The notes beneath the pieces are model-generated. The model was not told where the DNA came from and made no database searches. It saw only the letters and a list, made by a program, of their open reading frames with translations. The translations under genes were made by a program, and so were the position numbers. This document shows positions 7,808 through 56,517 of a DNA stretch of 64,000 nucleotides, one piece after another. Source of the DNA: Acidobacteriota bacterium. GTDB lineage: Bacteria > Acidobacteriota > Terriglobia > Acidiferrales > UBA7541. Positions within the stretch are counted from its first letter, which is position 1. Every line of letters starts with the position of its first letter. Location: positions 1-64,000 of the forward strand of contig QHYK01000115.1 in NCBI GenBank assembly GCA_003224085.1, given 5' to 3'.

Positions 7808-7846
7808 ACTCACATTATAGCGCCCGAAAACGCCGCGTCCGATTCC

Positions 7847-7948: not shown

Positions 7949-7987
7949 ACCGAAATGTTGGAGGTTCGAATCCTCCCCGGGGAGCCA
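7941..7987 (+). pseudogene. tRNA-Asn 3'-part remnant
   Basis: The segment holds a damaged anticodon arm (about two bases of the CTGTTAA loop missing), a perfect T arm (GGAGG TTCGAAT CCTCC), and the acceptor strand CCGGGGA with G discriminator and encoded CCA. The intact anticodon loop with GTT appears in the matching copy at 34009, which identifies the tRNA as Asn. The 5' half is absent and replaced by the 102-bp repeat. Confidence 0.75.
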
Positions 7988-8558: not shown

Positions 8559-11500
8559 ATGGCGTCCGCAGAACATGGTTCCCACCAGCCTGTCCGCTCA
8601 ACCGATCCGCAGCCGGATGGCACATTGGCGAAAGACCTCGCCAGTGACGATATTCTCGAAATATTGAGAATGATTCTCGCAGGCGCGTCTTTGAAGGAAG
8701 TGCTGACGAGCGTGGTGCGGGTTGTTGAATCTCATCGTGAAGGAATGCTCTGCTCGGTTTGGCTTCTTGATCAAGACCGTGTACACATGCGGGCTATCGC
8801 AGCGCCAACTCTCCCCGAATCCTACGTTGCAGCACTTGACGGATTTGTTGTTGGCCCACAGGGCGGATCGTGTGGCGCAGCGGTAAACCAGCGCAAGCCT
8901 GTTTTCGTCAGCGACGTTCTGACGGACCCAATCCTTGAACAGGTGCGCGACATAATCGCAGCACATGGCATTCGCGCCTGCTGGTCTGCACCAATCATAT
9001 CTCACCAAGGTGAAATTCTTGGAACCTTGGCGTTTTACTTCCGATCAGTGCGAAGCCCAAGTCCAAGAGATATCCACCTAATCGAAAACGCAACTAGCAT
9101 CGCTGGAATCGCGATAGAGCAGAAAAAAGCAGAGGAGAATCTACGGCGCAGCGAATGGTCTCTGCTTGAGGCTCAGAGACTAGGCCATTCGGGGAGTTGG
9201 AGTCTAGATGTTTCATCCGGGATTGTAACGACTTCGCCGGAAATGCTCCGGTCATTTGACGTCAAACCGGGTGACGACTGTTCAAGCCCTGACTTTTGGT
9301 TTAACAGGATTCATCCTGAGGATCGGAAGCGGATTCGGGATCTCTTTGAGAGATGCGTCATGGAGAAAACTGATTACGAAGCGCACTACCGCCTTCTTCT
9401 TCCCGACGGAGCCATCAAATACCAACATTCTATCGGACGTCCTATCGTGAACGAGAAGGGCGACCTCGTGGAATTTGTTGGGACCGCAATAGATGTCACC
9501 GAACAGGCGCAGGCCGAAGAGAAGCTGCGACGCAGTGAAGCAGATCTCCTTGAAGGCCAAAGGCTAACTCACACGCTCACTTGGAGATATGATGTTTCAT
9601 CGCGGAGAGTCACAAATACACCGGAAGCGAACCGAATATATGGCTTCAAAGGGGATGAGGACACCTCGGATCCTGAACTCTACTTCGAGATGATTCATCC
9701 CGATGACCGGAAGCGCGTTCGGGAGCTTTTTGAAAGATGCACAGTTCTGAAAATCAATTATGAGGCGGATTACGCCATCATTCTTCCGGACGGAAATATC
9801 AAGCACATTCATGCTACTGGCCACCCGGTTTTGAACGAATCAGGCGACCTCGTCGAGTGGGTCGGGACCACGATGGATGTCACCGAACAGGCGCAGGCCA
9901 GGATTGAATTGGAGAAAGCTTTTGAAGAGATTAAGCAGCGAACGGAAGCTGCCCGCCGGAGCGAGAGAGAACTTCGCGACGTGGTCAATACGGTTCCGGC
10001 GCATGTCTGGAGCACTTCGCCCGACGGTCAGGTTGATTTCGTTAATGATCGTTGGTTGCAATTCACAGGTTTAGCTTTGGACGAGGTATTCGGGTGGAAG
10101 TGGGAAACGGTTCTTCATCCCGATGACCGGACGAGGGTCGTCGCCGATTGGCACACAGCCCTTAAGAACGGGCAAGCCATGGAGAGTGAAGCGCGGGTTC
10201 GGCGGGCAGACGGAGAATATTGCTGGTGGTTTATTCGCAATGTACCGCTGTGCGATGAAGCCGGAAAGCTCGTCAGATGGTATGGAACCGCTATCGACAT
10301 CGAAGATCGCAAACGTGCCGAAGAGGCTCTACAGCGGAGTGAGGGTTACTTAGCCGAAGCACAGAAATTGACCCACACAGGCAGTTGGGCGGTGCGGGTT
10401 CCTCAGATGGAAAACGCGCAGCGTGAGGCCGGTCAAGAGCTTGCCGTGATCCCAAGGGTCGGCTGGAACGCTTCTTATTGGTCAAAAGAGATGTACCGGA
10501 TCTTCGGCCTCGATCCTGGCCCCACGCCACCATCCCCCCTGGAGGTAGCCCGGCGGCTGCACCCGGAGGACGCGCGTTATTACACACCTGTGGTCGAGCA
10601 GGCCGTTCGGGACAGGACCGACTTTGAGGCCGACTATAGGCTTCTTCTGCCAAACGGCCCTGCCAAGTACATTCATGTGCTTGGACACCCGGTAGTGAAT
10701 GCTTCCGGTGATGTCACTGAATTATTCGGTACGGCGATGGATGTGACAGAACGCAAACGTGCCGAAGATGTCCTCCGCGCGAGCGAAGCATCCTTGCTCG
10801 AGGCCCAACGGCTAACCCGCACCTGCAGTTGGAGACACGAGGTCTTATCAGGGAAGGTGACAGTCTCCGCGGAAGGGTTTGCAATGTTTGGGATTGAACC
10901 CGAAGATGACGCATCGTCGGTTGATTTCTATCACAGTAGGAAGCATCCCAAAGATCGGCCCGAGGCCGAACAAGCTTACGCGGCGGCTTTGCTTAGAAAA
11001 ACTGAGTTTGAGGGAGATTTTCGGATTGTTCTTCCAGACGGAACGATGAAAAACATCCGCAGTATCGGCCATCCCATCCTGGACGAACGCGGCGACGTCG
11101 TGGAGTTTGTCGGGGCATCAATCGATGTCACCGAACACCACCGCGCGCGAGCCGACCTGGAGAAGGCGTTTGAAGAGATTAAACGCCTGAAAGACCGTCT
11201 TCATGACGAGAATCTAGCTCTCAGGGAGCAAATTGATCAGGTCTTCATGTTTGAGGAGATTGTGGGCTCTTCACCGGCCCTGCAAACCGTGCTCTCCAGT
11301 ATCGTGAAAGTGGCCCCCACCGATTCCACGGTGCTGATCACGGGCGAAACCGGCACCGGAAAAGAATTGATTGCTCGCGCCATACACAAGCACTCGCAAC
11401 GTTCCGGCCAGGCGTTCATCAGCGTAAACTGTGCGTCGATTCCTTCCTCTTTGATCGCGTCGGAGCTGTTTGGCCACGAGAAAGGCGCTTTCACTGGCGC

Positions 11501-12206
11501 GGTGCAGCGGCGCCAGGGCCGCTTTGAGCTGGCACATTCCGGTACGATTTTTCTAGACGAGGTAGGCGATCTTCCCGCAGAGACCCAGATTGCGTTGCTG
11601 CGAGTGCTTCAGGAGCGGCAGTTCGAACGAGTGGGAGGTAACCGAATTATTCCCACCGACGTTCGGGTCATAGCCGCAACCAACCGTGATTTAACGGCGG
11701 CCATTGCCGCGGGAACGTTTCGAGCCGACTTGTTTTACCGGCTTAACGTTTTCCCGATTGAGGTGCCTCCTCTGCGCAAGCGGAGAGAGGACATTCCGAT
11801 GTTGGTCGAGTACTTCGTTAAACGCTACGCAGAGAAAGCCGGGAAGCAAATTCGCAAAATCGACAGGAATACGCTGGAACAGTGCCAGTCGTATCCTTGG
11901 CCGGGAAATATCCGTGAGCTGCAAAACATCGTCGAGAGATCGGTGATCCTGAGCGGCGGCGACACTTTTTGGATCGAAAAGGCTTGGCTGGCCAGCCAGC
12001 AGGCAGCTCGGCAAGAGTTGCCAGGCCCTTTGCCAGACACTCTCCAGAAACAGGAGAGAAAAATTATTGAAACGGCCTTAGCTGAAAGCAAAGGGAAAGT
12101 CGCCGGCCCAGAAGGTGCGGCAGCGAAACTCGGAATTCCCCGATCGACGCTGGACACGAAAATTAAGCAGCTGGGGATCAAGAAACACAGGTTTATCTCT
12201 AAGTAG
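8559..12206 (+). CDS. GAF/PAS sigma-54-dependent activator (bacterial enhancer-binding protein)
   Basis: The product from ATG 8559 is about 1215 residues. It has a GAF domain (about 25-185), five PAS/PAC units (about 200-310, 325-440, 465-585, 600-735, 742-865), a short coiled coil, an AAA+ sigma-54 interaction domain (about 897-1130) and a Fis-type helix-turn-helix (about 1180-1212). Walker A is GETGTGKE near residue 929, and the sigma-54-contacting GAFTGA loop is intact near 976. No receiver domain or histidine kinase is present, so it probably senses small molecules or redox state directly. It has a shorter paralogue at 12722. The three sigma-54 promoters at 14.8-23.1 kb are the likely targets of one or both. 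Confidence 0.9.
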
Positions 12207-12400
12207 TAGTAAGTCCCTCCTTTTAATTCCCGGGAATCCGGCACTTGCCGGAATTTCGTCATCCTGCGGTTGTGTCTAGTTCCCATGTTTTCAATGTGTT
12301 GTATGTGGCCTCGGTATTGCACTTCCGCTTGCGCCAGCGACCGTGATGGCGGCAATGCAGAGCATCGCGACCACTGAGACTTGGGCCAAACACACAACTG

Positions 12401-12658
12401 ATGACCTTGAGGATCGAGAGATCAGCGCGGCAGGGATTCACGGTTTTTACCCTAAGCGGGCGTATGAAGGCGGAGCAGGTCCCGGAGCTGAAGGAGCTTT
12501 TCGATACGGACTACCGAAGCATCATTCTCGACTTGCAAGAGATGAGGCTGGCGGATCGCGACGCAGTGAAGTTCCTAAGGAGTTGCGAGAGGGACGGGAT
12601 GACGCTTGAGAACTGCCCGGCGTACGTCCGCGAGTGGATGGACAGAGAAGAAGATTGA
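12401..12658 (+). CDS. STAS-like (anti-sigma-factor antagonist type) small protein
   Basis: The 85-residue product resembles a STAS domain: a strand-turn-strand opening (FTVFTLSGRMKAEQVPELKELF), a central strand and loop (SIILDLQEMRLADRDAVKFL), and a final helix. STAS proteins relay signals by binding partner proteins. The usual phosphorylated Ser/Thr after the DL(x)G-like turn is not obvious here. The gene sits between the two activators and may modulate one of them; that is an inference from position. Confidence 0.65.
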   Translation: MTLRIERSARQGFTVFTLSGRMKAEQVPELKELFDTDYRSIILDLQEMRLADRDAVKFLRSCERDGMTLENCPAYVREWMDREED

Positions 12659-12721
12659 GGGAACGACGACCTGGCACTGCGGCGGCTCAGGTTTGAAGAA
12701 AGAAGTCCATTGTGGTGAGCG

Positions 12722-14737
12722 ATGTCAGTCGGTGCGGCTCTGGCTCCAGTCCTGTCGCTCAATTCGGCGTTCGCCTCTGAAAGCGATTCCAGCGGGCGGG
12801 AGGCCAGCTCAGGGGCCAAGTTCGTTCAGATGGACCCAAACGTGAGCTTTGACAAGCAGATCGCAAACAACGTTGCGCCCGTAGTCCTCCTCAGGGCATC
12901 CCTGCGGCATGGCTTCGAAGAACCCGGAGTACAGGACATTCGCCTTGTCGTCGACACCATCCCTACGTTGGCATGGTCTGCTGGTCCAGACGGCTCCGCA
13001 GACTTCTTCAATCAGCGCTGGCTGGACTATACGGGTCTATCTGCGAAGCAAGCTCTGGGCTCGGGATGGGAGGTTGCGATTCATCCAGACGACCTGCCAC
13101 GAATTCTGGAAACATTCCGGGAAGCTTTGAATTCTGTAAAGCCGTTCGAGGTGGAGGGCCGCTTCCGCCGCTTCGACGGCGAATTTCGCTGGTTTCTCTT
13201 TCGCGGCGGTCCTCTGCGCGACCGATCGGGGAAAGTGGCGAAGTGGTACGGAACAAATACCGATCTTGAGGAGCGGAAGCGTGCTGAAGATGCCCTCCGC
13301 TCGAGCGAAGCATCCTTGCTCGAAGCCCAACGGCTAACCCGCAGCTGCAGTTGGAAACACGAGATTTTATCAGGGAAGGTGACAATCTCCCCGGAAGGGC
13401 TTCCAATGTACGGCATTGTACCCGAAGATGACGCATCGACGGCTGATTTCTATTTCAGGAGGATGCATCCCGAAGATCGGCCCGGGGTCGAACAAGCTTA
13501 CGCGGAGGCTCTGCTTAGAAAAACTGATTTTGAGGCAGATTTTCGGATTGTTCATCCAGACGGAACGATCAAAAACACCCGCAGTATCGGCCATCCCATC
13601 TTGGACGAGCGCGGCGACGTCGTGGAATTTGTCGGGGCATCAATCGATGTCACCGAACACCACCGCGAGCGAGCCGAGCTGGAGAAGGCGCTTGAAGAGA
13701 TTAAGCGTCTGAGAGATCAACTGCACAACGAAAACGTAGTGCTCAGGGAGCAGATCGACCAAGCGTTCATGTTCGAAGAGATCGTCGGCACCTCGTCGGC
13801 GTTGCAGGGAGTGCTTTCTCGGCTAATGAAAGTTGCTCCCACCGATTCGAGCGTTTTTGTTAGTGGAGAGACTGGAACTGGTAAGGAACTGGTCGCCCGC
13901 GCCATCCATAAGCGATCTCGTCGGTCGCAACGCGCCTTCGTGAGCGTGAACTGCGCAGCTCTTGCCCCATCGCTGATTTCTTCCGAACTCTTTGGCCACG
14001 AAAAAGGCGCGTTCACGGGGGCGATGCAGCGCCGCCTAGGTCGATTTGAACTGGCGAACGGAGGAACCATTTTCCTCGACGAAATCGCGGAGCTGCCGCT
14101 GGACACTCAGGTTGCACTCCTGAGGGTGTTGCAAGAACGTGAATTCGAACGCGTCGGCGGCACGCAACCCGTTAAGATCGATGTCCGCGTAATAGCGGCA
14201 ACTAATCGCGATCTGGAAGCCGCCGTTGCAGACGGGACATTTCGCCCGGACCTCTACTACAGGCTGAACGTATTCCCGATCCAGGTTCCCCCGCTTCGCG
14301 AACGGCAAGACGACGTTCTGATCCTGCTGGAATACTTTGTCCATCGTTTTGCCCAAAAGATGGGCAAGCAGTTTGGAAAGATCGATAAGCGAACGGTCGA
14401 GCTATTTCGGTCCTACCCCTGGCCGGGCAATATTCGCGAACTGCAAAATGTTGTTGAGAGGTCGGTCATTGTGAGTTCTGATGAGGTGTTTTGCGTGGAT
14501 GCAGCCTGGTTGTCCAGGGATTCCCGTCGAGTCAGCTTGCCGCAACACCCTGAGCCCGCAGACGCCGATGAGGACGCCAGTCGTGAACGGCAGATCGTTG
14601 AGGACGCACTCGCGAGAAGTCGAGGGCGAGTGTCTGGCCCGAGCGGGGCCGCGGCGAGGCTCCGAGTACCACCTTCGACCTTGGAGCACCGCATTAAGAA
14701 ATTAAGGATTCGTAAAAGCCACTTCAAACTCAGCTAG
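12722..14737 (+). CDS. PAS-containing sigma-54-dependent activator (second paralogue)
   Basis: The 671-residue product carries two PAS/PAC domains (about 70-190 and 197-320), a coiled-coil linker, an AAA+ domain (about 350-590) with Walker A GETGTGKE near 382 and GAFTGA near 429, and a C-terminal Fis-type helix-turn-helix. From the second PAS onward it is very similar to the last part of the activator at 8559, so the pair arose by duplication with loss or gain of sensor domains. Its 3' end (from 14706) is copied twice downstream as part of a promoter cassette, which ties it to that regulon. There is no obvious receiver domain. Confidence 0.9.
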   Translation: MSVGAALAPVLSLNSAFASESDSSGREASSGAKFVQMDPNVSFDKQIANNVAPVVLLRASLRHGFEEPGVQDIRLVVDTIPTLAWSAGPDGSADFFNQRWLDYTGLSAKQALGSGWEVAIHPDDLPRILETFREALNSVKPFEVEGRFRRFDGEFRWFLFRGGPLRDRSGKVAKWYGTNTDLEERKRAEDALRSSEASLLEAQRLTRSCSWKHEILSGKVTISPEGLPMYGIVPEDDASTADFYFRRMHPEDRPGVEQAYAEALLRKTDFEADFRIVHPDGTIKNTRSIGHPILDERGDVVEFVGASIDVTEHHRERAELEKALEEIKRLRDQLHNENVVLREQIDQAFMFEEIVGTSSALQGVLSRLMKVAPTDSSVFVSGETGTGKELVARAIHKRSRRSQRAFVSVNCAALAPSLISSELFGHEKGAFTGAMQRRLGRFELANGGTIFLDEIAELPLDTQVALLRVLQEREFERVGGTQPVKIDVRVIAATNRDLEAAVADGTFRPDLYYRLNVFPIQVPPLRERQDDVLILLEYFVHRFAQKMGKQFGKIDKRTVELFRSYPWPGNIRELQNVVERSVIVSSDEVFCVDAAWLSRDSRRVSLPQHPEPADADEDASRERQIVEDALARSRGRVSGPSGAAARLRVPPSTLEHRIKKLRIRKSHFKLS

Positions 14738-14753
14738 GCCTTTTTCCGAGGAC

Positions 14754-14785
14754 TGGTGAAATCGCAATTTTCGCCAATTTCACCA
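14754..14785. promoter_or_regulatory. Inverted repeat, probable activator-binding site (copy 1)
   Basis: TGGTGAAAT and ATTTCACCA form perfect 9-bp arms around a 14-bp spacer. The centre is about 95 bp upstream of the predicted sigma-54 transcription start, the usual place for an enhancer-binding protein. The arms are conserved in all three cassettes while the spacer varies in copy 3. Confidence 0.65.
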
Positions 14786-14838
14786 AATCCACAAGCAGCT
14801 TTCCGGCCTTCTCTTCTTCCTTTTCAATCTCTTGCGGA

Positions 14839-14854
14839 TGGTCCGCCTCTTGCA
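14839..14854 (+). promoter_or_regulatory. Sigma-54 (-24/-12) promoter, copy 1
   Basis: TGGTCCGCCTCTTGCA fits the sigma-54 consensus TGGCACG-N4-TTGCW at 10 of 12 defined positions, with the GG and GC elements exactly 10 bp apart. Transcription would start near 14865, about 75 nt before the isochorismatase ATG. The same 16 bases occur at 20889 and 23040. Confidence 0.75.
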
Positions 14855-14939
14855 CCTGGAGTTGCTGAGAGACGTTACGTACCGTCTCGAAACCGACGAC
14901 TCAATCATGTTCTCGGATTTCAGAAAGGTGTCATCAACA

Positions 14940-15557
14940 ATGGAACGATTAACGAGAGATAACTCAGCAGTATGCCTGATTGACCATCAGGTCGGCCTAT
15001 TGCTTGGAGTCCGTGATATCACGATCAACGAATTGAAACACAACGTGGTCGGTCTCGCCAAGGCGGCGAAAATTCTTGGGATGCCAATCATCGCGTCTAC
15101 CACAGCCAAAGATGTCTTGTGGGGGCCGACGTTTCCTGAGCTCGTTGCTGTCCTAGATACAAAAAAGTATCCCATTATTGAGCGAATGACGATGAACGCA
15201 TGGGATGACCCGGATTTCGTAAAGGCGGTTAAAGCTACGGGCCGGACGCATCTCTTGTTTGCGGGCGTTACTCTTCAAGTCTGTGCGGCGCTTCCTGCTT
15301 ACTCGGCTTTGGCCGCCGGCTATAAGTCTTATGTCGTGATCGATGCATCAGGGGTGCTCAGCGCAACCAATCGCCAGGTAGGTATCGCCAGAATTCAACA
15401 GGCAGGTGTAATCCCCGTCGACTATTTCTCAATCGTGTGTGAAGTCATGGCAACCAACGCTGATCCATCCGCCAACGAGGTATATGCGGCGCTCGACCAG
15501 GACTTCTCCACCGTGATCGGACAGTTCTCTAAAGCCATGACTGGCAAAACGAAATAG
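14940..15557 (+). CDS. Isochorismatase-family cysteine hydrolase
   Basis: The 205-residue product has the Asp-Lys-Cys triad positions of the family: Asp in NSAVCLIDHQVG, Lys in STTAKDVLWG, and Cys in VTLQVCAALPAYS. Members hydrolyse amides, nicotinamide or vinyl ethers; the substrate is not evident. ATG 14940 is preferred because AAAGG precedes it and the family N-terminus starts here; the frame is open upstream through the promoter cassette. It is the first gene behind sigma-54 promoter copy 1 and probably heads an operon with the dioxygenase-like and PQQ genes. Confidence 0.85.
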   Translation: MERLTRDNSAVCLIDHQVGLLLGVRDITINELKHNVVGLAKAAKILGMPIIASTTAKDVLWGPTFPELVAVLDTKKYPIIERMTMNAWDDPDFVKAVKATGRTHLLFAGVTLQVCAALPAYSALAAGYKSYVVIDASGVLSATNRQVGIARIQQAGVIPVDYFSIVCEVMATNADPSANEVYAALDQDFSTVIGQFSKAMTGKTK

Positions 15558-45207: not shown

Positions 45208-45531
45208 CTAACCTAGTGCAACCCGTTCCAATCGTTCGAGAGTGTCGGGATATTTGCGAACTAACAAGACGAGGGCTGCTGCCTGAGGATTGGGTTTTGC
45301 GCGACCCTGTTCCCACTTCTCAAGCGTGCGTTCGTTAATGCGCAACTTCCGAGCGAAAACGGCTCGCGAACAGCGCAGCCTCTTACGCGTATCCCGAATC
45401 AGCTTCGAATCCACCTTGGGCAGCGGTCCCGCTTCAACGTTGTAAGTGCGCAGCGTGATTTTGCCCTCGCGATGACTTTTCATCGCTGCGACGCCTTCCA
45501 TCATTTCGTCGAAAATCTTTCTCTTGCTCAT
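45208..45531 (-). CDS. HTH (XRE-family) regulator, antitoxin-like
   Basis: The product from ATG 45531 is 107 residues. Its C-terminal half is a Cro-type helix-turn-helix (LIRDTRKRLRCSRAVFARKL, then INERTLEKWEQGRAKP), as in NadS/HigA-like antitoxins that usually follow a RelE-type toxin gene. No toxin precedes it here; the neighbour upstream is the last gene of the respiratory cluster, 5 nt away. GGAGGTGA gives a strong ribosome binding site. It may be an orphan antitoxin or a local regulator. Confidence 0.8.
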   Translation of the reverse strand: MSKRKIFDEMMEGVAAMKSHREGKITLRTYNVEAGPLPKVDSKLIRDTRKRLRCSRAVFARKLRINERTLEKWEQGRAKPNPQAAALVLLVRKYPDTLERLERVALG

Positions 45532-45536
45532 CACCT

Positions 45537-46013
45537 TCACCTCCGCGGTTTCCTTTGCTTCGCAAGCTTCGCGCCCTGACGTGCCCGGAGCTCGGTTTCA
45601 ATCGCGCTGTTCCGTTTTCGGTCCGGCTGAGGTTTTGGCGAACCAGTACCAGTTGCAAACCCGACCAAGCTTTGGGATCGACCTGAAGGAGTGTTCACGG
45701 CCGGGATGCCTAGAACCGCGGCGTGCTCGTCCCCATATTGCCAATCTTCAGCGTACTGGTTGCGCTTGCGATACGCCACGATGGCGACGATCGTGCCGAT
45801 GGACAACGGAGGGAAAAGAAGGATCAGGATTCCGTGTTTAAGAGCCTGAATAAAATGCGTACCGGAATTGGCGGCGGTTTGATAGCACAACGCGCAACTC
45901 TGGGCGTAAAGAGACAAGGGGCTTACGAGCAGGGCTAGCGCGGTGACGCCGCACTTCAGGAGCTGGTATCTGGCTTTTGGCCCCAGATGCATCCTAAGTT
46001 GTTCCGTTTCCAT
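45537..46013 (-). CDS. Small membrane protein at the end of the oxidase operon
   Basis: The product of about 158 residues has a signal-like first membrane segment ending SLYAQSCALCYQTAANSG, a second membrane segment (ILILLFPPLSIGTIVAIVAY), and a long basic tail. The CxxC after the cleavage-like site could bind metal or act as a redox pair. It follows CoxD by about 50 nt in the same direction, so it is probably an accessory or assembly protein of the oxidase. ATG 46013 is preferred; 46031 and 46040 are alternatives. Confidence 0.6.
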   Translation of the reverse strand: METEQLRMHLGPKARYQLLKCGVTALALLVSPLSLYAQSCALCYQTAANSGTHFIQALKHGILILLFPPLSIGTIVAIVAYRKRNQYAEDWQYGDEHAAVLGIPAVNTPSGRSQSLVGFATGTGSPKPQPDRKRNSAIETELRARQGAKLAKQRKPRR

Positions 46014-46062
46014 TCTAATTCCCCGAGGCATCCTACCCAAGCCCGATAATAGAACTTCAGGG

Positions 46063-46377
46063 TCACCAATGTACGACCCGCAAATGCTCGAGCCGGAGCG
46101 CGTCCGGCCAGAAATGATCCATCATGAAAAGCACGAACAGCAGCGCTGGGATTAAGCTCCAGAAAAGGCTAGGGCGTTCGTACTTCAAGTGCATGAAGAA
46201 CATCACGGCTATGCCCGCCTCGATGAATGCAAAAATAAGCAGGAACAAGAGCAATCTATCGCTCGACAAATGCCGGTAGGTCAAGAAGACCTCAATTCCT
46301 ACGATGCACAGCAAACCGACCCAGATTGCCAGATAAGATTTCATTCCCAGAGCATTTCTTGGTTGCGTGGCGGCCAT
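46063..46377 (-). CDS. Cytochrome c oxidase subunit IV (CoxD-like)
   Basis: The 104-residue product has three membrane segments (LAIWVGLLCIVGIEVFLTY, LLLFLLIFAFIEAGIAVMFF, LFWSLIPALLFVLFMM) with MHLKYE between the second and third, as in prokaryotic subunit IV of haem-copper oxidases. It helps assemble the complex. ATG 46377 has GGGAGG just upstream. Confidence 0.8.
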   Translation of the reverse strand: MAATQPRNALGMKSYLAIWVGLLCIVGIEVFLTYRHLSSDRLLLFLLIFAFIEAGIAVMFFMHLKYERPSLFWSLIPALLFVLFMMDHFWPDALRLEHLRVVHW

Positions 46378-46408
46378 CTTGCCTCCCAATGCCCTTCGCC
46401 CGGGGTTC

Positions 46409-47038
46409 CTATTTCGCGTTCATGAGATAAACCAGCGGAAAGACGAACATCCAGACGACGTCCACAAAATGCCAATACAGGCCGACGGTCTCGACATGAC
46501 TCTCGTCCGTGCGCCTCCGGTGGTACTTGATGGCCACGACAAGGATAGCCACGATGCCGGCAATGACGTGACCCAGGTGCAGACCGGTGATGCTAAAGAA
46601 CGTGGCGCCGAACAGCGCTGGTCCGCCAACGGGGTTTTGGAACAGCCGCCAGCCTTCACCAATCATTCTCAGCCATTCGCGGATGTGCAGAACCGCAAAG
46701 AGGGTTCCTAGCAGCACCGTCACGCCAAGCCAGGCAAGACAGCGTGAGGGGTTCTCATTTTTTGCAGCTTCGAGCGCGCCCAGCATCGTCACGCTACTGG
46801 CGAGAAGCACAAACGTCATGACCATGCCGTTCACAATGGTTGGCGAAAAGGCGAACGGCGTGGTCCAGTCCGTGCTTCCGACCCGCACATAGCCGTAAGC
46901 GAACAGGATAGAAGCGAAGGTAACCGCGTCAGAAAGGATGAACAGCCAAATGCCGAGCTTCTTGTGCTGAATCCCGTACGGCGATTCTTCTCGCAGGGCC
47001 TCATGACCGGCCATAACCCCCTCAGATTCGCTCACCAC
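46409..47038 (-). CDS. Cytochrome c oxidase subunit III (second CoxC)
   Basis: The 209-residue product is a subunit III with about five to six membrane helices. Landmarks are LGIWLFILSDAVTFASILFAY at the start, TGLHLGHVIAGI, and VGLYWHFVDVVWMFVFPLVY at the end. It carries no redox centre; it stabilises the oxidase and helps oxygen access. Two subunit III genes in tandem (with 47045) suggest one is a split or specialised version. The start could be GTG 47038 or ATG 47014, each with a G-rich site upstream. Confidence 0.85.
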   Translation of the reverse strand: MVSESEGVMAGHEALREESPYGIQHKKLGIWLFILSDAVTFASILFAYGYVRVGSTDWTTPFAFSPTIVNGMVMTFVLLASSVTMLGALEAAKNENPSRCLAWLGVTVLLGTLFAVLHIREWLRMIGEGWRLFQNPVGGPALFGATFFSITGLHLGHVIAGIVAILVVAIKYHRRRTDESHVETVGLYWHFVDVVWMFVFPLVYLMNAK

Positions 47039-47044
47039 GCCCTC

Positions 47045-47773
47045 CTAAATGGTGTCCATCCGGGTCATCATCAAAAGAATCAAATAGATCCACAGGCCGT
47101 CCATGAAGTGCCAGTACACTGAGGCGACGCCGAGCGCCGCTCTTTGCCTCGGACCTGTGCTTCGGCTCAACCCATGAAGGACATAAGCCAGGCCGGCAAT
47201 CCCACCGAGCAAGTGCACGCCATGAGCCGCGGTCAAAACATAAAAGAACGAGCTGCTGGGATTTGTTGAAAGGAAGAGCCCCTCGGCGGCAAGCTCACGC
47301 CACGCAACCAACTGCCCGGCGACGAACATTAATCCAAGCCCCATAGTGAAGTAAAACCAGTACAAGGCTCGAGCTGACGCTCCCGCATCCCCGGCCGGTT
47401 TTTTCTGTCCGAAATTGTGATGTTGCCCGAACCGGCGGCGGGACATTTCCAGTGTAAAACTGCTCAGCAGGAGAATCAGCGTATTAAAGTAAAGAATTCG
47501 TGGCAGCTCAAAATGTCCCCAGTCTCTGGCCGCGCCTTGCCGAACAACCATGGCGCTGGTAAGAGCGGCGAACATCATCGAAATGGCCGCCACCGCAACC
47601 CAAATGCCCGTTTGCGAAGGCGCGACTCCGGCGGGAAGCGAAGAAATGCGCCTCCGCGGGCCTTCCTTGGAGCCTCCTTCTCCCCCTTCGGACGGGCCCA
47701 GCTCGCGTTTTATCTGAGGCGGCGGGGAGTAGGTTGACGATGCCATGGTCTTGAGGTGCTCGCTTTCCAACAT
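47045..47773 (-). CDS. Cytochrome c oxidase subunit III (first CoxC)
   Basis: The 242-residue product has a polar N-terminal tail and five membrane helices typical of subunit III (GIWVAVAAISMMFAALTSAMVV, FYVLTAAHGVHLLGGIAGLAYV, ASVYWHFMDGLWIYLILLMM). Its ATG comes immediately after the CoxA stop, so translation is coupled. The AAHGVHLLGG and YWHFMDGLW motifs are hallmarks. Confidence 0.85.
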   Translation of the reverse strand: MLESEHLKTMASSTYSPPPQIKRELGPSEGGEGGSKEGPRRRISSLPAGVAPSQTGIWVAVAAISMMFAALTSAMVVRQGAARDWGHFELPRILYFNTLILLLSSFTLEMSRRRFGQHHNFGQKKPAGDAGASARALYWFYFTMGLGLMFVAGQLVAWRELAAEGLFLSTNPSSSFFYVLTAAHGVHLLGGIAGLAYVLHGLSRSTGPRQRAALGVASVYWHFMDGLWIYLILLMMTRMDTI

Positions 47774-49546
47774 TTAGCCCGCTGCCGCCTTTTCGGGCGA
47801 AGTCTGCATCACGTAATCGCCTGCGGCGCTCTCCACGCCGTATTCCTCCGGGCCGTGGTAGACAATCAGATGCCTCCCGCCGAAGTTGTCAAAGGGGGGC
47901 GGCGAAGTGGTGGCCCATTCTAAGGTGGTTGCTTCCCAGGGATTGTCAGTCGCCCTTGGCCCGCGGAAGCGGCTCCAAATCAGGTTGTAGAGAAAAAGGA
48001 GCTGGGCGGCACCGGTAAAGAGCGCTGCGATGGTAATGAACCTGTGTACGGGAATCAGCGGAATTAAATAATTATCGGTAAACGCGGCGTAACGACGCAC
48101 GTTGCCGGCCAGACCCAGATAATGCATGGGCATGAAGATAGCGTAGACACCTACGAAGGTCAAACAGAAGTGCCACTTGCCGAGCGTTTCATTCATCATG
48201 CGGCCGAACATTTTCGGGAACCAAAAATAGGTGCCGGCAAAAATCCCGAACATGGCTGCGACGGCCATCACAAAATGGAAGTGAGCCACAACGAAATACG
48301 TAGCATGCAAATAGGTGTCCAGCGAAGGCTGTGCGAGAAAAAACCCGCTGAGCCCCCCGGTGATGAATACGGAAATAAAGCCGATGCAGAAGAGCGCGGG
48401 CGTGCTGAAGCGCAACTTGGCGCCATAAAGCGTGCCAAGCCAGAGCAGCACAACAATCGTCGCCGGAATGGTGATGATCAGTGTGGGCACGGAGAACAGC
48501 AGCGCCGAGAAGGGATTCATCCCGCTCACGAACATGTGATGTCCCCAAACCATGTAGCTGAGGAAGCCGATGGAGACCATGCATCCGATCACCGCCCGGT
48601 AGCCAAGGATGCGCTTGCGGGCAAAGACGGGGAGAATCGTGGAAATAATGCCAAACCCCGGAAGGATGGCGATGTACACCTCCGGATGCCCGAAAAACCA
48701 AAACAGATGTTGCCAGAGAAGCGGCGAACCGCCCGCGTGCGGCAACACTTGATCATTCACCACTAGACCCGCGGGATTGAAGAAGCTCGTTCCTGCCACG
48801 CGATCCAAAACCAGCAGCACACAAGCCGGCAACAAAACCGCAAACGCCAGCAAACCGATGACCGAAGTTACAAACCACGCCCACGTGGAAAGCGGCATGC
48901 GCGCCAGGGACATCCCTTTGGTGCGCAAGTCGAGCGTGGTGGTGATGAAGTTCAGGGAGCCGAGCAACTGACCCACACAAAAAATCGCGATCGACAGTGC
49001 CCAAAGAGTCTGGCCGGTTCCCTGGCCCGGGCCGGCGACGGCGCCGACGGAACTAAGCGGGGCATAAGACGTCCACCCGGCCAGCGCCGGTCCGTCCCCG
49101 ACAAAGAAAGAGAGAATCAGCACCGCAAACGCCACAAAGGTGACCCAGAAGGACATCATGTTGATGCGGGGGAAGGCCATGTCTTCGGCGCCCACTTGAA
49201 TGGGGAGAAGATAGTTTCCAAAGCCCGCGAAAGGCGCAGTAGTCAAGACAAAAAAGACCATGATGGTGGCATGCATGGTCATCAGCGAGAGGTAATACTC
49301 CGGGGTCATGACGTTCCCCGGCGCTCCGGTCGGCGAGAGCTTTTCGAGAAGCGGAATGTGTGCGGCGGCCCAGCCCAGGTGGATGCGCATCAACCAGGAC
49401 AAAACCATCCCAATGAAAACAGCCAAGAGCGCCAGGCCGTAATACTGCTTGCCAATCACTTTGTGGTCGACGCTGAATACGTATTTTCGAATAAATCCCT
49501 GGGGTGGCGCATGGTGGCGGACCACTGCTTGCGCGGAACTATTCAC
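47774..49546 (-). CDS. ctaD: Cytochrome c oxidase subunit I
   Basis: The product from GTG 49546 is about 590 residues with 12 or more helices. All metal ligands are visible: low-spin haem His in MTMHATIMVFF, CuB His and the cross-linked Tyr in FGHPEVYIAILPGFG, the CuB His pair in WGHHMFVSG, and HATYFVVAHFHFVM with the haem a3 and haem a His. The Glu in GHPEVY indicates an A1-type proton-pumping oxidase. The frame is open upstream to 49708, but GTG 49546 behind GAGGTG is preferred because the extra part overlaps CoxB. Confidence 0.93.
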   Translation of the reverse strand: MNSSAQAVVRHHAPPQGFIRKYVFSVDHKVIGKQYYGLALLAVFIGMVLSWLMRIHLGWAAAHIPLLEKLSPTGAPGNVMTPEYYLSLMTMHATIMVFFVLTTAPFAGFGNYLLPIQVGAEDMAFPRINMMSFWVTFVAFAVLILSFFVGDGPALAGWTSYAPLSSVGAVAGPGQGTGQTLWALSIAIFCVGQLLGSLNFITTTLDLRTKGMSLARMPLSTWAWFVTSVIGLLAFAVLLPACVLLVLDRVAGTSFFNPAGLVVNDQVLPHAGGSPLLWQHLFWFFGHPEVYIAILPGFGIISTILPVFARKRILGYRAVIGCMVSIGFLSYMVWGHHMFVSGMNPFSALLFSVPTLIITIPATIVVLLWLGTLYGAKLRFSTPALFCIGFISVFITGGLSGFFLAQPSLDTYLHATYFVVAHFHFVMAVAAMFGIFAGTYFWFPKMFGRMMNETLGKWHFCLTFVGVYAIFMPMHYLGLAGNVRRYAAFTDNYLIPLIPVHRFITIAALFTGAAQLLFLYNLIWSRFRGPRATDNPWEATTLEWATTSPPPFDNFGGRHLIVYHGPEEYGVESAAGDYVMQTSPEKAAAG

Positions 49547-49602
49547 GTGGGCACCTCGCAAACGAACCTTCGGGCTGCCGCCATAGCGCGGCAGCGCCGA
49601 TC

Positions 49603-50403
49603 CTAATCGCCGGACTGGGTTTTTAGCCACTGGTCGAACTGATTCGGCGGCAGCACCTCGAGAAACGACCTCATGCTGTAGTGGCCGAGACCGCACAGTT
49701 GGGTGCAAACGATCTCGTACTTCCCGACGCGCGTTGCCGTGAAGTGCAGCGGCATGGTCAGGCCCGGCACAATGTCCTGCTGCATACGCAATTCAGGAAC
49801 GTAAAACGAGTGAATCACGTCTTTGCTGTGCATGGTGAGGAGAACGGGCCGATTGACAGGCACGGTCAAGGTACCCACGATGGTGTCGTCCCGCGCCGCG
49901 ACATCGTTTGCCGGGTCAAGCCCAAAGTAGTTCCCGTTTCCGTCCCGGACCCTTTCCGGATGGACGACGCCGAACTGGCCGTCCGGTCCTGCATAGCGGA
50001 AATAAAAAGCAAACTGCTCAGCGGCGACGTCAACGTGAAGCGCGTCCGGCTCGGCAGGCGTCATATAAACAGCCGCCCACACCTTAGACCCTACAAAAGA
50101 AAGAACTAGGATTTCGACCCCCACCAAGACAATGGCCAAACCGATGAGGGGGCCGGGGCCCCCAGGAAAATATCTGATCGTTCGTCCATCCTTGTTGTCG
50201 CTAAATTTCCAAGCAAAGTAGCCGAGAATCAACTGCGAGGAAAGGAAAAGGAAACCGGTGGCGGCCATGGTCTCATCCATCTGGCGGTCAATCCTGGGCC
50301 CGATGGTTGAGATATCCACTGGCGGCCACCAGACATGTGCGGCGATCAGCCCGGCGGATACAAGCGCAATAACCGTCACAACTATTGCGAATAATTTGCC
50401 CAT
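49603..50403 (-). CDS. ctaC: Cytochrome c oxidase subunit II
   Basis: The 266-residue product has two membrane segments and a periplasmic cupredoxin domain with a complete CuA centre: His in DVIHSFYVPELRMQQD and CTQLCGLGHYSM (CxxxC, His, Met). There is no C-terminal cytochrome c domain, so this is an aa3-type rather than caa3-type oxidase and needs a soluble donor. The diheme cytochrome and cupredoxin-like gene upstream are the natural candidates. Confidence 0.92.
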   Translation of the reverse strand: MGKLFAIVVTVIALVSAGLIAAHVWWPPVDISTIGPRIDRQMDETMAATGFLFLSSQLILGYFAWKFSDNKDGRTIRYFPGGPGPLIGLAIVLVGVEILVLSFVGSKVWAAVYMTPAEPDALHVDVAAEQFAFYFRYAGPDGQFGVVHPERVRDGNGNYFGLDPANDVAARDDTIVGTLTVPVNRPVLLTMHSKDVIHSFYVPELRMQQDIVPGLTMPLHFTATRVGKYEIVCTQLCGLGHYSMRSFLEVLPPNQFDQWLKTQSGD

Positions 50404-50478: not shown

Positions 50479-51210
50479 CTAGTAAAGATAAGGAGTGACC
50501 TTATATGTGAAAGTGATCGTCTTGGTCTCCCCCGCAGCAAGCGTCACTTCCTGACTTTGCGTGCCATACTGTTCTTGCCAACTCGTCACAGTGTACTTGT
50601 CTGGCGGGAGTCCCTTCAAGCTGAACGACCCGTTGTTGTCGGTGACCGCGTAGCGAGAAGTCTTGAGAACTGCGAAGTACCCGTGCATCCACGGATGGAT
50701 GTTGCACTTTACTTCAATGAACTCCGGTTTGCTCCACTTCGTCTCGATGGGCGGGGCCCCGGGCGGCTGAGATTTATTCCACTCCGGATTCAGTTTCGGA
50801 AGCGGGTGGATGTTATGCGCGAATGGATCATCGGTGTAGATCTGAAGAGGCTGGTCCACCTGCATCGGGAGCACATGCGGGATATACATGCAGCCTTTCT
50901 GATCATATCTTGCGGCCTGGGTGGGGGTGGGGGAAGGCGGCCCGCCAGCCGAGATGTATACGACCACATATTCAAGTACGTTTCCGGGACCCGTGACTAC
51001 GTTTTGGGCCATCTCCGGCGGGTTGTGCTCCTTGGCGCAGGTTGGCTCCTTGGCCATGTCAATCGGCTTCATCTTGGGAGGTGTGCCTGTATAGGTCACT
51101 TTCCCTTCGATTGTGCCCGAGTCCGCTCGAGGATTGGCCAGGACCACCACCACCGAGCCCGCGAGAAGACCAACGAAAGGCAGTAAAAGAGACACGGATT
51201 TCGACCGCAT
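50479..51210 (-). CDS. Cupredoxin-like periplasmic protein (carboxypeptidase-regulatory domain)
   Basis: The 243-residue product has a signal peptide (LLLPFVGLLAGSVVVVLA), a cupredoxin-like middle with FAHNIHPLPKLNPEWN and VKCNIHPWMHGYFAV (potential type-1 copper ligands His, Cys, His, Met), and a carboxypeptidase-regulatory-like C-terminus (NNGSFSLKGLPPDKYTVTSW). Homologues are called methylamine-utilisation-like. Position between the diheme cytochrome and CoxB suggests a copper electron carrier or an oxidase copper-loading role. A broken paralogue is at 56758. Confidence 0.75.
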   Translation of the reverse strand: MRSKSVSLLLPFVGLLAGSVVVVLANPRADSGTIEGKVTYTGTPPKMKPIDMAKEPTCAKEHNPPEMAQNVVTGPGNVLEYVVVYISAGGPPSPTPTQAARYDQKGCMYIPHVLPMQVDQPLQIYTDDPFAHNIHPLPKLNPEWNKSQPPGAPPIETKWSKPEFIEVKCNIHPWMHGYFAVLKTSRYAVTDNNGSFSLKGLPPDKYTVTSWQEQYGTQSQEVTLAAGETKTITFTYKVTPYLY

Positions 51211-52171: not shown

Positions 52172-53647
52172 TCAAAAGTCGAAGTCGAATCCGAAAAACA
52201 AGGTTTGACTCCAAACCCCAGGGCACCTCGTAGCTGAACATAGTGCCGTAAGCGGCGCGAGCGGAGAGAGGCCCACGCCATTGCCGCTCAATGGAATAGC
52301 CCCGGCCGTCTTCACCAGCGAAAATTCGTTGTGCCAAGCCAGCCCCGCGCGGCTGAACATGATGGGATACCATCGGTAGCCTGCCGTATAGGCATCGATG
52401 TCCCCTTGATTGGCTGGCATCGTCGGAGTCGGGAAAGCCTGACGCGACATGCGGAGGATCTCGTAGCGACCTGTTAGGACCAGTTGCGGGCTATAGTAAT
52501 AGTGCGTTTCGATGAACCCGCCGTTCCAAGTTGGGGCTTTAGCGCCAGCCGGAAGGGTTACGGGAGGGGAACAAGGCGCAGTTAACCCACAGCCTATTCC
52601 TAGGAATACGCTGTCGTATCCATGCAGGAAAAATGGCAGGAACTCCCATTTCCCCTGGAGGGTGTAAAGATCTCCAGCGAACCCCACACGATAAAATGAC
52701 TTATTCCCTATCCCGGTCCCCGGTATGGGCGCGGTCGTGAAGGTCTGCGAGAACGTTGGTCTTCGGCCAACGTACGCGTATCCGCCGAGCCTCTGGAGCC
52801 CCAGTCGGCCAACCTGAAAAGCTTGGCTGAAAGTGACGTACCCGTCGTAGGTTCGGTTCGAGGGCAGGCCAACGTTACCGCTGTTGCTGCTCAGCACCGA
52901 CACCGAATAGCGCGTGTAGCTGTTTATGGAATGTCCCATCAATTCAAGGCCAATCTGATTGTCTCCGAGCCCGAAGTCGTTCGCATCTCCCACGGGCGCG
53001 AAGTGATAGGTCTGGTACAAACCCCCGTTTGCGGATAGGAATAGGAATCGCTTTTCGGAAACCAGGTTGTCGAGCTCGAACTTCCCGAACTTTACATTCA
53101 GCCACCGGCTTTTGAGCAAATTGTCAAAGCGCACGAATGCGTTTTCGAAGTGGAAGGCCCCTGTCGAGTCCGAGGAAGGAAGCAGGGAAAAGGAAATATT
53201 CTTGTACAGTGTCCCGGCCGTCCAGAGATCGAAGCCAGAGAGGTCAAAACCGTGTTGCTCCACGACGGAGCCGTTTGGCGGCGCGCCGTCGACAGGCTGA
53301 TGATTCGTGCGCTCGCGGTGCCAATTCGGCGTCATGCGCAATGTCATTGGCCAATACGTCGGGTTCTGCCAAATGGGGGAGTCGCGATCGTTCATGAGCT
53401 GGTATCCGTTGTCGCGGAAGACTTGGCCAAAGTTGTTCAATTCGGGCCACGCTGTGTGGCACGCCGAACATGGCAGTCCGTACTTTCTGGCAAACGCAGG
53501 GATCGCGCGGAAATTGCCGCCAGGGAGAGGCTTGGCAGAGGCGGAACGACTATCCGCAAGGATCATGGCAAAGAGAAAAAACCCTAACAACGATAACGCC
53601 AACCACGAGATGCTCTTCTTCGCCGAATGTCTTGCCCGTTCGCCCAT
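52172..53647 (-). CDS. Cyc2-like fused cytochrome c-outer-membrane porin
   Basis: The product from ATG 53647 (perfect AGGAGG upstream) is 491 residues. It has a signal peptide (about 14-38), then a single haem site C60-S-A-C63-H64 inside FARKYGLPCSACHTAWPELN, and from about residue 90 a long beta-barrel with alternating aromatic strands and a terminal Phe (FFGFDFDF). One haem ahead of a porin in one chain is the plan of Cyc2, the outer-membrane Fe(II) oxidase. The haem-site neighbourhood (P-x-FARK...CxxCHTAxPxL...FG) fits that family. It is first in the operon that ends with the cox genes. Confidence 0.8.
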   Translation of the reverse strand: MGERARHSAKKSISWLALSLLGFFLFAMILADSRSASAKPLPGGNFRAIPAFARKYGLPCSACHTAWPELNNFGQVFRDNGYQLMNDRDSPIWQNPTYWPMTLRMTPNWHRERTNHQPVDGAPPNGSVVEQHGFDLSGFDLWTAGTLYKNISFSLLPSSDSTGAFHFENAFVRFDNLLKSRWLNVKFGKFELDNLVSEKRFLFLSANGGLYQTYHFAPVGDANDFGLGDNQIGLELMGHSINSYTRYSVSVLSSNSGNVGLPSNRTYDGYVTFSQAFQVGRLGLQRLGGYAYVGRRPTFSQTFTTAPIPGTGIGNKSFYRVGFAGDLYTLQGKWEFLPFFLHGYDSVFLGIGCGLTAPCSPPVTLPAGAKAPTWNGGFIETHYYYSPQLVLTGRYEILRMSRQAFPTPTMPANQGDIDAYTAGYRWYPIMFSRAGLAWHNEFSLVKTAGAIPLSGNGVGLSPLAPLTALCSATRCPGVWSQTLFFGFDFDF

Positions 53648-54304
53648 ATCGCCTCCTGAGTATTGGCCACCTATCACCTTCCTACTGGAAGATCTGGGGA
53701 CTACCTGTACACGGAAGGAGGACATACCCTCCAACCGACGGCCCCGTGGTGGATAGACAACCCCGGGGAAATTTTTGATGAAAACAACAAACCACGTCCC
53801 TAGAGAACCCGCTGCGTCTCTTGGTCACGAAAGTGACGAGCTGTTTCCGGACCGAGGGGCGAATCTACCCCGGGAAAAAAAGCAATGTCAAGTAATTTTG
53901 TCGCCCTTTGTCACTTTTTTCACTTTTTGTCTTGAAGATCTTCGTGAGCTTGGAATTCTACAAATTCTACGATTGCGCGACTACCTAAATCCGGCGAGAA
54001 GTTCGCCGTTTTCTACGAAAATCGAGCTTTTCTCTCACAATTTTTTCAGCAGTCGATGATTTTTGACAAAATTGGCTTTAGCCTTCCAGCAGTTTACTCG
54101 ATGCACCTGCCACACGATAATCATACGGTAATCAGGGGCGAATTAACTAACCCTTCCACCCCTTCCCCAGCCGCATTGCTCGCGCGGTCGATTGTGAGCA
54201 ATTCGTTGCCCAACTTCCTAAAAACTTTTTGAGGGTTGACATTCCTGCGCCCCACGCGGTAGGAAAAGACTTCGACCCAATCGTTCCTTTGAGCAGAGGT
54301 AAGT
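53648..54304. other. Divergent intergenic region
   Basis: This lies between the respiratory operon and the SH3-like genes and contains A+T-rich stretches (53870-54110). It must hold the promoter of the operon reading left, but I could not fix it. No gene recognised. Confidence 0.45.
54236..54265 (+). promoter_or_regulatory. Possible promoter of the SH3-like gene pair
   Basis: TTGACA at 54236-54241 and TAGGAA at 54260-54265 are 18 bp apart, about 40 nt before ATG 54305. The -10 is weak. Confidence 0.4.
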
Positions 54305-55222
54305 ATGCGTGGCACACCGCGAGGGGCCAAGCGGGACTACTGGCCGGTTCGGCGCAAATCACTGCCGATATCGGTGGGCTTCGGATTGAGCAGCGTGATG
54401 CTCTCGGCGTTTTTACTGATACCGCGACTCTACGCCTCGAAGGACCAGGACACACCCAATCCAGGTTTCGTGACCGAATTCGCTGCTCCGCTTGATGACG
54501 TCCTCGAGGCCTTACAGGAAGTGCTTCAGGATGGAACGATCCATGGGACACTCATGTTTGAAAAAGAACTGACGCTTACCGGTGCGATTGCTGTAGAGTC
54601 AACTCCACTCTTCGCACCGTGGAAGGGCCCCGGCAAGGTCTACTATAAGATTCGCAACGATGCCCTAGCTCCCCGGCATTTCCTGCGGAGCGCAGACCAA
54701 GGGACGATCGCAGTTCGTTATGTGGTCACGAGTGTTAGCCCAGAACGGACGCGCTTGCGCATTGACGCGATTTTTGTTGAAACGGCCCAACGCGCAGCGC
54801 ACCCGTCCGATGGCACTGTCGAATCCAGCGAATACAAGGCTATTCAGGATCATCTTCAGGCGATGCAACATGCCGAACAGGAAGCGGCCGACGCCCAGCG
54901 GCGCCGCGAGAGTGCGGACCTTGCCAGACAAACCTTCATCCGCCAGCGCGAAGATGAGGCAGCTCTTCTAGCCTCGGCAAAGTCTTCCGCACAAGATCTC
55001 GAGCAGCGCATCGATTCTTTACGGCACGAGGTACAGAGACGGATTAGAGCACCCGGTGCCGCTTTGAAAGCGGCACCATTTCGCTCAGCAGCCACCCTGA
55101 GCAATCTCGCCTCCCAGACCGAGGTTGTTATCCTGATCGTGACTCCCCACTGGTACGGTGTAGAAACTCCCAGCGGTCAGCACGGATGGCTTCCTCTAGA
55201 CCAATTGGAACCCCTGCCGTGA
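54305..55222 (+). CDS. Exported SH3-like-domain protein
   Basis: The 305-residue product has an N-terminal membrane or signal segment (about 22-42), a conserved alpha/beta domain (FAAPLDDVLEALQEVLQDG; LTGAIAVESTPLFAPWKGPG), a long coiled coil with many Glu/Arg/Ala (about 180-250), and a C-terminal SH3-like strand set (TEVVILIVTPHWYGVETPSG, then HGWLPLDQLEPL). GAGG precedes the ATG. Bacterial SH3 domains bind envelope structures. The next gene encodes a related protein and overlaps its stop as GTGA. Confidence 0.65.
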   Translation: MRGTPRGAKRDYWPVRRKSLPISVGFGLSSVMLSAFLLIPRLYASKDQDTPNPGFVTEFAAPLDDVLEALQEVLQDGTIHGTLMFEKELTLTGAIAVESTPLFAPWKGPGKVYYKIRNDALAPRHFLRSADQGTIAVRYVVTSVSPERTRLRIDAIFVETAQRAAHPSDGTVESSEYKAIQDHLQAMQHAEQEAADAQRRRESADLARQTFIRQREDEAALLASAKSSAQDLEQRIDSLRHEVQRRIRAPGAALKAAPFRSAATLSNLASQTEVVILIVTPHWYGVETPSGQHGWLPLDQLEPLP

Positions 55223-56517
55223 GAAAACATACAGGCGCCAGATGCAAGTTGCGATTTCTTCTGTGGTGTATGTTTTTCACCTTGGGCATTTCATCTCCGT
55301 TGCCGGTAATTGCCCAAGCCGTCCCTTACGCACGAACCTATGCCAAATCGAATGAGGAAGTGGACAGAGCCTTGAAAGAAATGCAAGCCTACACTGGCCA
55401 AAGACTGCCGGTTCTTGACGGCTTCGTGGCCAGTGCAGATCACCCCCTTGATCGCTATCAGCGCGCCTACTACCAGTTCTCGATCGACCTTCTGCCGGCA
55501 GGGCCCGGCAGCGCCGTTGTTCGCGTCACCGCAAAAATCACGGCGTGGTATACCGACCGTGAGCCGTGGAAGTCAGGCTATCAGGTTCTTCCCTCGAACG
55601 GCCGGCTAGAGTTAGACCTTCTTGACAGACTCAGCGACAAGCTCGGCGGCAAGCCTGCTGCTTCTGCATCAAGTCCGGATGTGGAAGCTCCAAAACCGAA
55701 GTTGAACCTCTCTGGCTTGGCGAGCAGTCCTCTCACGCCAAGCAAAATTCCCGTCCCGGCTCCGACCGTCTTCGCAAGGACGGCGCCGGGCGGATCAGAA
55801 GGTGAAGAACTAACTGCGCTTCGAGCGCAGCGCGAGGCCGAAGAGAAGCGCATGCGACAGCTCAACGAAGAGCTCCAGAACCTCGAGGAGATCCAGCGCA
55901 GCCAAGCGCATCCTGCGAATCTTGTTGTGGTGAAGAAAGCCGGCACGCCTGTGCTGGCGCGACCCGCGGCGGACTCCCGCGTTCTCTTCCTGGCTGCGGT
56001 TGATGACGAATTCGAGTCTCTTGAGACCAATGGGGAATGGATTCACGTGCAGATTTCCGGTCCGTTGCGTGGATATATTCGCCGAAGCAATGTGGATTTG
56101 CCCGAGGATGTCGCCTCGCGGTTAAAATCGCCAGACGGGACCACCGCCAATGTGAAGCCGGAGGTCTTCCGAGTAGAGCGCGAGGAAGCCAGGATCTTCC
56201 CTGGCAAATGGGAGCCGCTGGCTGGGAAGTCCGTAAAGATATATACCGTCCGGTCGATTTCACAAGACTTGAAAACCGATGCTGCTGCGAAGCGCAATTT
56301 CGCGTTTTCCCTGTTCCAGAAATTCTCAGAAGACTCAAGCGGCGGGGCAGCGCCGGGAGTCGAGGGAGTTGTGGTCACTTTTGATTCCGCCGACGGTGGC
56401 ATCGTAGGGGCCACGCTCGCAACCCTTAAACAGATGATGGCCGGCTCGCTCTCCCGAGACAATTTCTGGAAACTCTGTTATTTGGATCCCCCTGACGCCT
56501 TTCAGCCATCGCCTTAG
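55219..56517 (+). CDS. Exported SH3-like-domain protein with coiled coil
   Basis: The product from GTG 55219 is about 432 residues with a signal peptide (CMFFTLGISSPLPVIAQA), a domain similar to that of the upstream gene, a Pro/Ser linker, a short coiled coil (about 205-235), a bacterial SH3 domain (VVKKAGTPVLARPAADSR, then GEWIHVQISGPLRGYIRRSN), and a C-terminal domain of unknown type. The GTGA overlap with the upstream stop favours this start over ATG 55186. It is probably periplasmic or attached to the envelope. Confidence 0.7.
   Translation: MRKHTGARCKLRFLLWCMFFTLGISSPLPVIAQAVPYARTYAKSNEEVDRALKEMQAYTGQRLPVLDGFVASADHPLDRYQRAYYQFSIDLLPAGPGSAVVRVTAKITAWYTDREPWKSGYQVLPSNGRLELDLLDRLSDKLGGKPAASASSPDVEAPKPKLNLSGLASSPLTPSKIPVPAPTVFARTAPGGSEGEELTALRAQREAEEKRMRQLNEELQNLEEIQRSQAHPANLVVVKKAGTPVLARPAADSRVLFLAAVDDEFESLETNGEWIHVQISGPLRGYIRRSNVDLPEDVASRLKSPDGTTANVKPEVFRVEREEARIFPGKWEPLAGKSVKIYTVRSISQDLKTDAAAKRNFAFSLFQKFSEDSSGGAAPGVEGVVVTFDSADGGIVGATLATLKQMMAGSLSRDNFWKLCYLDPPDAFQPSP

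Follow-up and report, generated by a model that had tools for sequence, protein, structure and literature searches.

For aerobic iron oxidation Cyc2 serves as the principal marker gene, but the function of its diverged homologues in bacteria which are not known as iron oxidisers is uncertain. According to Keffer et al. (PMC8406198), Cyc2 proteins share the consensus AXPXFAR[Q/K][T/Y] before the haem site and PXL after it, and function is least certain for the divergent homologues, notably those of Cluster 3. In Acidithiobacillus, Acidiferrobacter and Acidihalobacter the rus operon has the order cyc2-cyc1-cup-coxBACD (PMC10654088). Acidobacteria were named in the same work as holders of Cyc572 homologues, and Hausmann et al. 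reported that MAGs of related Acidobacteria from peatland lacked dissimilatory iron genes (PMC6018796). Here we describe a diverged Cyc2-like branch whose gene heads a conserved operon arranged like this best-studied iron-oxidation operon; the genomes concerned number in the dozens, belong to two phyla and come from soil, peat and permafrost. A search of open papers returned no description of this operon.

The locus lies in a stretch of 64,000 nt, here called the window, which was analysed as a whole and to which coordinates refer unless another contig or locus is named. Its features are as follows:

54305..55222, plus strand: divergent gene upstream of the operon, of no known family, conserved beside the operon in Acidobacteriota (neighbourhood comparison, no family match)
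55186..56517, plus strand: divergent gene upstream with a weak SH3-like match, conserved beside the operon (neighbourhood comparison)
53652..53657, minus strand: Shine-Dalgarno sequence AGGAGG, 4 nt before the ATG at 53647 (sequence)
52172..53647, minus strand: Cyc2-like fused monohaem cytochrome-porin, 491 aa (translation, orthologues, model, fold matches)
53438..53506, minus strand: haem region AIPAFARKYGLPCSACHTAWPEL, residues 48-70, with the CxxCH at 53456-53470 (motif, invariance, consensus in PMC8406198)
51250..52155, minus strand: diheme cytochrome c with the class-I domains CVGCH and CWKCH, in a Cyc1-like position (Pfam Cytochrom_C; 6h5l_B, E 2e-57)
50479..51210, minus strand: cupredoxin (H132..C169-x2-H172-x2-M175) with CarboxypepD_reg/transthyretin-like parts, in the cup/acoP position (invariant ligands, model, fold matches)
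49603..50403, minus strand: coxB, cytochrome c oxidase subunit II with the CuA motif CTQLCGLGHYSM (profile matches, sequence)
47774..49708, minus strand: coxA, subunit I, given as the longest frame, with the true start probably further in (PF00115, E 2e-133; GHPEVY and HH ligands)
47045..47773, minus strand: coxC, subunit III, first copy (PF00510)
46409..47038, minus strand: coxC', subunit III, second copy (PF00510)
46063..46389, minus strand: coxD, subunit IV (PF03626)
45537..46040, minus strand: small membrane-like protein (SCALCYQTAA) of no known family, conserved last operon gene (37/55 loci; no Pfam match)

The minus-strand ORF, read from 53647 to 52172, translates into 491 residues, and the plus-strand frame over 52172-53647 is interrupted by 10 stops. 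The protein has a signal peptide-like start and exactly one haem-c site, the CxxCH formed by C60, C63 and H64, and it ends in ...GFDFDF, thus in Phe. An earlier note made from the sequence had placed a secreted 491-residue chain with one CxxCH and a final Phe at these positions, and in all these points its reading was correct. It had also judged by eye that the haem context is of the Cyc2 type. Indeed, AIPAFARKY, GLP, CSACH, TAW and PEL, which follow each other in this order, fit the published consensus exactly, residue for residue. When all six frames of the whole window were searched (approximately 128,000 codons), the full motif A.P.FAR[QK][TY]..CxxCH...P.L occurred once, at this gene. Among 75 aligned sequences P50, F52, A53, R54, K55, C60, C63, H64, P68 and L70 are invariant and each relative has a single CxxCH; since the motif is kept across the orthologues, it is not due to chance. 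No conserved Met that could serve as the sixth haem ligand was found near the haem in the orthologue alignment. In the barrel, H239 (window 52931-52933) is the only His besides H64 that is invariant in the 75 orthologues, and the alignment makes it a candidate haem or iron ligand. Scans for promoters and terminators showed no excess over shuffled sequence.

An AlphaFold model of the protein was built from the 75-row alignment and reached a pLDDT of 81.8 and a pTM of 0.80, with about 18 strand segments (DSSP) between residues 101 and 490. The alignments for the AlphaFold models contain no loci from the genome search. The haem domain (residues 33-64) has a pLDDT below 50; such a poor prediction is expected for a domain modelled without its cofactor. 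By Foldseek the top solved match was OprP (E 3.1e-11), and VIA-align gave Z 25.0 for PorB (rmsd 2.9 over 298), 23.9 for OprP and 23.8 for OprO, the matched structures being 3WI4/4AUI (PorB), 2O4V (OprP) and 4RJW (OprO). The secreted protein is thus predicted to be a porin whose haem domain would lie at the periplasmic mouth. The barrel postulated in the earlier note is supported by the model, but its strand number of about 16 has to be widened to 16-18, since most of the top solved matches are porins with 16 strands and the model has 18 segments. OprP, OprO and PorB were reported as templates for Mariprofundus Cyc2PV-1 (PMC8406198), and Leptospirillum Cyc572 was matched to PorB (4AUI and 3WI4) at approximately 10% identity and an rmsd of approximately 3 (PMC10654088). 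The nearest solved relatives of the window protein are therefore the porins used in the published Cyc2/Cyt572 models.

In Pfam, NCBIfam and the PDB sequences no family or sequence match to the porin protein was found, and its classification as Cyc2-like therefore rests on motif, fold and neighbours. Members of the Cyc2 family are recognised by one haem-c site in a chain of at least 365 residues, by AxPxFAR[Q/K][T/Y] upstream of the CxxCH and PxL downstream of it, and by a C-terminal barrel of about 16 strands resembling OprP, OprO and PorB. The 491-aa protein shows the first two features in its sequence and the third in its model, where the strand number is 16-18. The sequence and fold criteria examined thus support its assignment as a Cyc2-type monohaem porin. 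However, the strongest evidence for this reading is the rus-like operon downstream, which lies outside the part of the window covered by the earlier note.

From its first gene on, this operon encodes the Cyc2-like protein, the diheme cytochrome c, the cupredoxin and the oxidase genes coxB, coxA, coxC, coxC' and coxD. The ATG of the diheme gene at 52155 is located 16 nt past the stop of the Cyc2-like gene, and a longer frame reaches 52281. Subunit I carries the haem/CuB ligands and subunit II the CuA site, as is characteristic of an aa3-type heme-copper oxidase. The CuA motif was found in 56 of 60 subunit II matches, the other four being incomplete frames; the complete motif in subunit II implies that the electron donor of the oxidase is a carrier protein and not quinol. 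The copper ligands H132, C169, H172 and M175 (C169-x2-H172-x2-M175) are invariant among the relatives of the cupredoxin. Its AlphaFold model (pLDDT 88) matches amicyanin and plastocyanin with Z values of 11-12, and AcoP is found among the fold matches at ranks 43 and 49 (TM 0.41 of target). Fold and His, Cys, His and Met ligands are those of a type-1 copper cupredoxin, for which copper binding is predicted. The copper protein is not a rusticyanin; by its model, a transthyretin-like domain encloses a domain of the amicyanin/plastocyanin type.

Two further elements flank the operon. Just past its end (window 45208-45540, minus strand), a 110-aa helix-turn-helix protein is encoded which by eye resembles antitoxin-type regulators. 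The divergent pair at 54305-55222 and 55186-56517 (plus strand) is present upstream of the operon in approximately 50 of 80 loci, and in locus L105 it is inserted between the Cyc2-like and the diheme genes. The pair is a possible unrecognised partner.

The arrangement is conserved. In 55 loci with more than 7 kb of downstream sequence, the diheme gene is kept in 54, the cupredoxin gene in 51 and the genes for COX1 and COX4 in 44, and the full colinear order is present in 40 of the 55, which are located in MAGs of Acidobacteriota and Gemmatimonadota. A match to the porin protein was detected in 35 of 61 genomes of the window's genus and the wider class, and approximately 20 of these 35 have a full orthologue (roughly 47-88% identity). 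A species-level genome collection contains at least 515 loci encoding a relative. The earlier note had called fused monohaem porins rare outside the Cyc2 type; in view of this number in a single collection, the word "rare" needs to be qualified. The best 80 of these at least 515 relatives, all with at least 47% identity, were analysed. They originate from MAGs labelled Acidobacteriota, Gemmatimonadota and, in two cases, Chloroflexi, and no Cyc2 of Mariprofundus, Gallionella or Leptospirillum is among these 80, all of which are close relatives. Of the two Chloroflexi copies, one does not differ from a Gemmatimonadota copy and was probably mis-binned. By their titles, the host samples were taken at soil, peat, palsa, bog, fen and permafrost sites, many of them at palsa, bog and fen.

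In an unrooted tree, a single well-supported branch divides the Acidobacteriota rows from those of Gemmatimonadota plus Chloroflexi, and apart from the pair that was probably mis-binned nothing points to recent exchange. The window gene is placed next to that of locus L074, from a MAG of acidobacterial group 2 (88% identity). In this nearest relative (L074, 8971-11353) only the Cyc2-like and diheme genes are present and oxidase genes are absent downstream, suggesting that these two genes can move or be kept independently of the oxidase. A second Cyc2-like copy in L053 (7181-8509) and L095 (9001-10329; G018:C75) contains an in-frame TGA which parts the haem end from the barrel, and is probably a decaying paralogue or an assembly error. 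More distant are the FARQT-type Cyc2-like proteins, which were found in the same class and on plasmids of Caballeronia, Acidiphilium and A. ferrooxidans. The A. ferrooxidans plasmid protein was rejected as a tested Cyc2 reference: it is a FARQT-type relative and not the characterised Cyc2 of the rus operon. By hhalign, the porin family is related to the FARQT-type proteins over the haem domain and the first strands (98.7% probability), and profile comparison links it over the whole length to a second paralogue group (99.9%, 413 columns).

A second Cyc2-like gene, FSRKYQTSCTTCH, is located in the same genome on contig C62 (L004) in a cluster at 6717-14954. It is followed by genes for a cupredoxin (PF00127), a pyridine-nucleotide/4Fe-4S oxidoreductase, a Rieske protein, a split cytochrome b and a large multi-domain cytochrome c. 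This cluster could be an uphill electron branch, if the rus/pet pair of Acidithiobacillus is taken as a guide. The genome harbours five COX1 genes. No RuBisCO large subunit was found in it, which leaves Calvin-cycle autotrophy unsupported and suggests energy capture alongside organic carbon instead.

Based on these data, we consider it probable that the gene encodes a Cyc2-type outer-membrane electron inlet, which probably oxidises dissolved Fe(II) and feeds the aa3-type oxidase of its own operon in lithoheterotrophic soil bacteria. Substrate, electron direction and carrier order are proposed here by analogy with the rus system. Dissolved Fe(II) would enter the barrel pore and give one electron to the single haem at the periplasmic end of the barrel, from where it would pass to the diheme cytochrome, the cupredoxin or both; these carriers would deliver it to the CuA of the oxidase, and O2 would be reduced while protons are pumped. 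At the level of the protein, the Cyc2 haem motif, its invariance among orthologues, the barrel model and the porin matches argue for this proposal. At the level of the genome, it is supported by the operon order resembling that of rus operons, the downstream conservation, the cupredoxin ligands, the CuA motif and the second, redox-linked Cyc2-like gene. Against it stand the lack of rusticyanin, the haem-domain pLDDT below 50, the 18 strands instead of 16, the loci, L074 among them, in which Cyc2-like and diheme genes have no adjoining oxidase, and the absence of dissimilatory iron genes from related MAGs according to Hausmann et al. (PMC6018796). Further, no iron phenotype is known among the hosts.

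The natural donor to the same inlet and chain could also be something other than Fe(II), either manganese as Mn(II) or Mn(III) or a soluble redox shuttle, for example reduced humics; a role in Mn(II) oxidation has been proposed for Cyc2 and other cytochrome-porins in Ca. Manganitrophaceae (PMC9040806). In line with this, the barrel has diverged from the FARQT-type proteins (16-21% identity), so that pore selectivity may differ, and palsa, bog and fen are the sampling sites of many hosts. We nevertheless regard such a donor as rather unlikely, since Fe(II) is the substrate of each of the three Cyc2-family proteins that have been tested biochemically (PMC8406198) and the operon order copies that of an Fe(II) operon. 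It is improbable that the protein is a non-respiratory haem porin for solute or metal import, with the haem used for sensing or detoxification or as a structural plug and the operon as coincidental shared regulation: the diheme cytochrome gene adjoins in 54 of 55 loci and the cupredoxin gene in 51, and the paralogue is likewise tied to redox genes, although anion and phosphate porins are the nearest matches of the barrel and some homologues are located away from oxidase genes. An outward flow, in which the porin-cytochrome would pass periplasmic electrons to Fe(III) or other external acceptors, appears highly improbable despite the facts that porin-cytochromes also serve Fe(III) reducers and that acidobacterial iron reducers exist (Paludibaculum). 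One haem alone cannot span the membrane, and the operon ends with an aa3-type oxidase with CuA which, with the cupredoxin included, represents a high-potential oxygen-reducing branch.

The proposed Fe(II)-oxidising inlet is of interest beyond this locus. From the conserved rus-like layout, dissolved iron may be a source of electrons for many uncultured Acidobacteriota and Gemmatimonadota of soil, and the question whether common soil heterotrophs gain energy in this way is made testable. It is tempting to go further and to speculate, quite tentatively, that Fe(II) respiration is common but overlooked in these abundant uncultured bacteria and uses two Cyc2-type inlets, one leading downhill through a cupredoxin of new architecture to the aa3-type oxidase, the other uphill through Rieske/cytochrome b and the pyridine-nucleotide oxidoreductase. 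If true, the arrangement would be parallel to the rus and pet operons but made of different parts.

In comparison with known systems, the window protein shares with the Cyc2 family (A. ferrooxidans Cyc2, Mariprofundus Cyc2PV-1, Leptospirillum Cyt572; PMC8406198) the signal peptide, the single N-terminal CxxCH within AxPxFAR[QK][TY]...CxxCH...PxL, a length of more than 365 aa and a porin barrel like that of OprP, OprO and PorB. It differs from them by the K/Y form of the motif and by the 18 strand segments of its model instead of the reported 16, the comparison being made via published motif and fold. With the FARQT-type Cyc2-like proteins it has the haem domain in common, but the barrel can be aligned in the first strands only (16-21% identity).

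The nearest solved sequence to the diheme cytochrome is that of Kuenenia (6h5l_B; E 2e-57 over 215 residues), which in Kuenenia is a partner of an HAO-like complex and not of an oxidase. As in the AcoP/cup system (7z3f, 7z3b; PMC5982212), the cupredoxin gene is located between those for a diheme cytochrome and coxB, and AcoP is among the fold matches. However, the window cupredoxin matches AcoP more weakly than amicyanin or plastocyanin, and it has transthyretin-like parts around the copper domain.

In the operon, rusticyanin is missing, and TIGR03095 matches nothing in the genome; a strict rus operon is thus rejected, and we call the operon rus-like. It has the order of the rus operon (PMC10654088), i.e. 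cyc2, diheme cyc1, cupredoxin, coxB, coxA, coxC and coxD. Unlike the rus operon, it has two subunit III genes and an extra small last gene, its cupredoxin carries the C-x2-H-x2-M loop inside a CarboxypepD_reg/transthyretin-like protein, and its hosts are Acidobacteriota and Gemmatimonadota.
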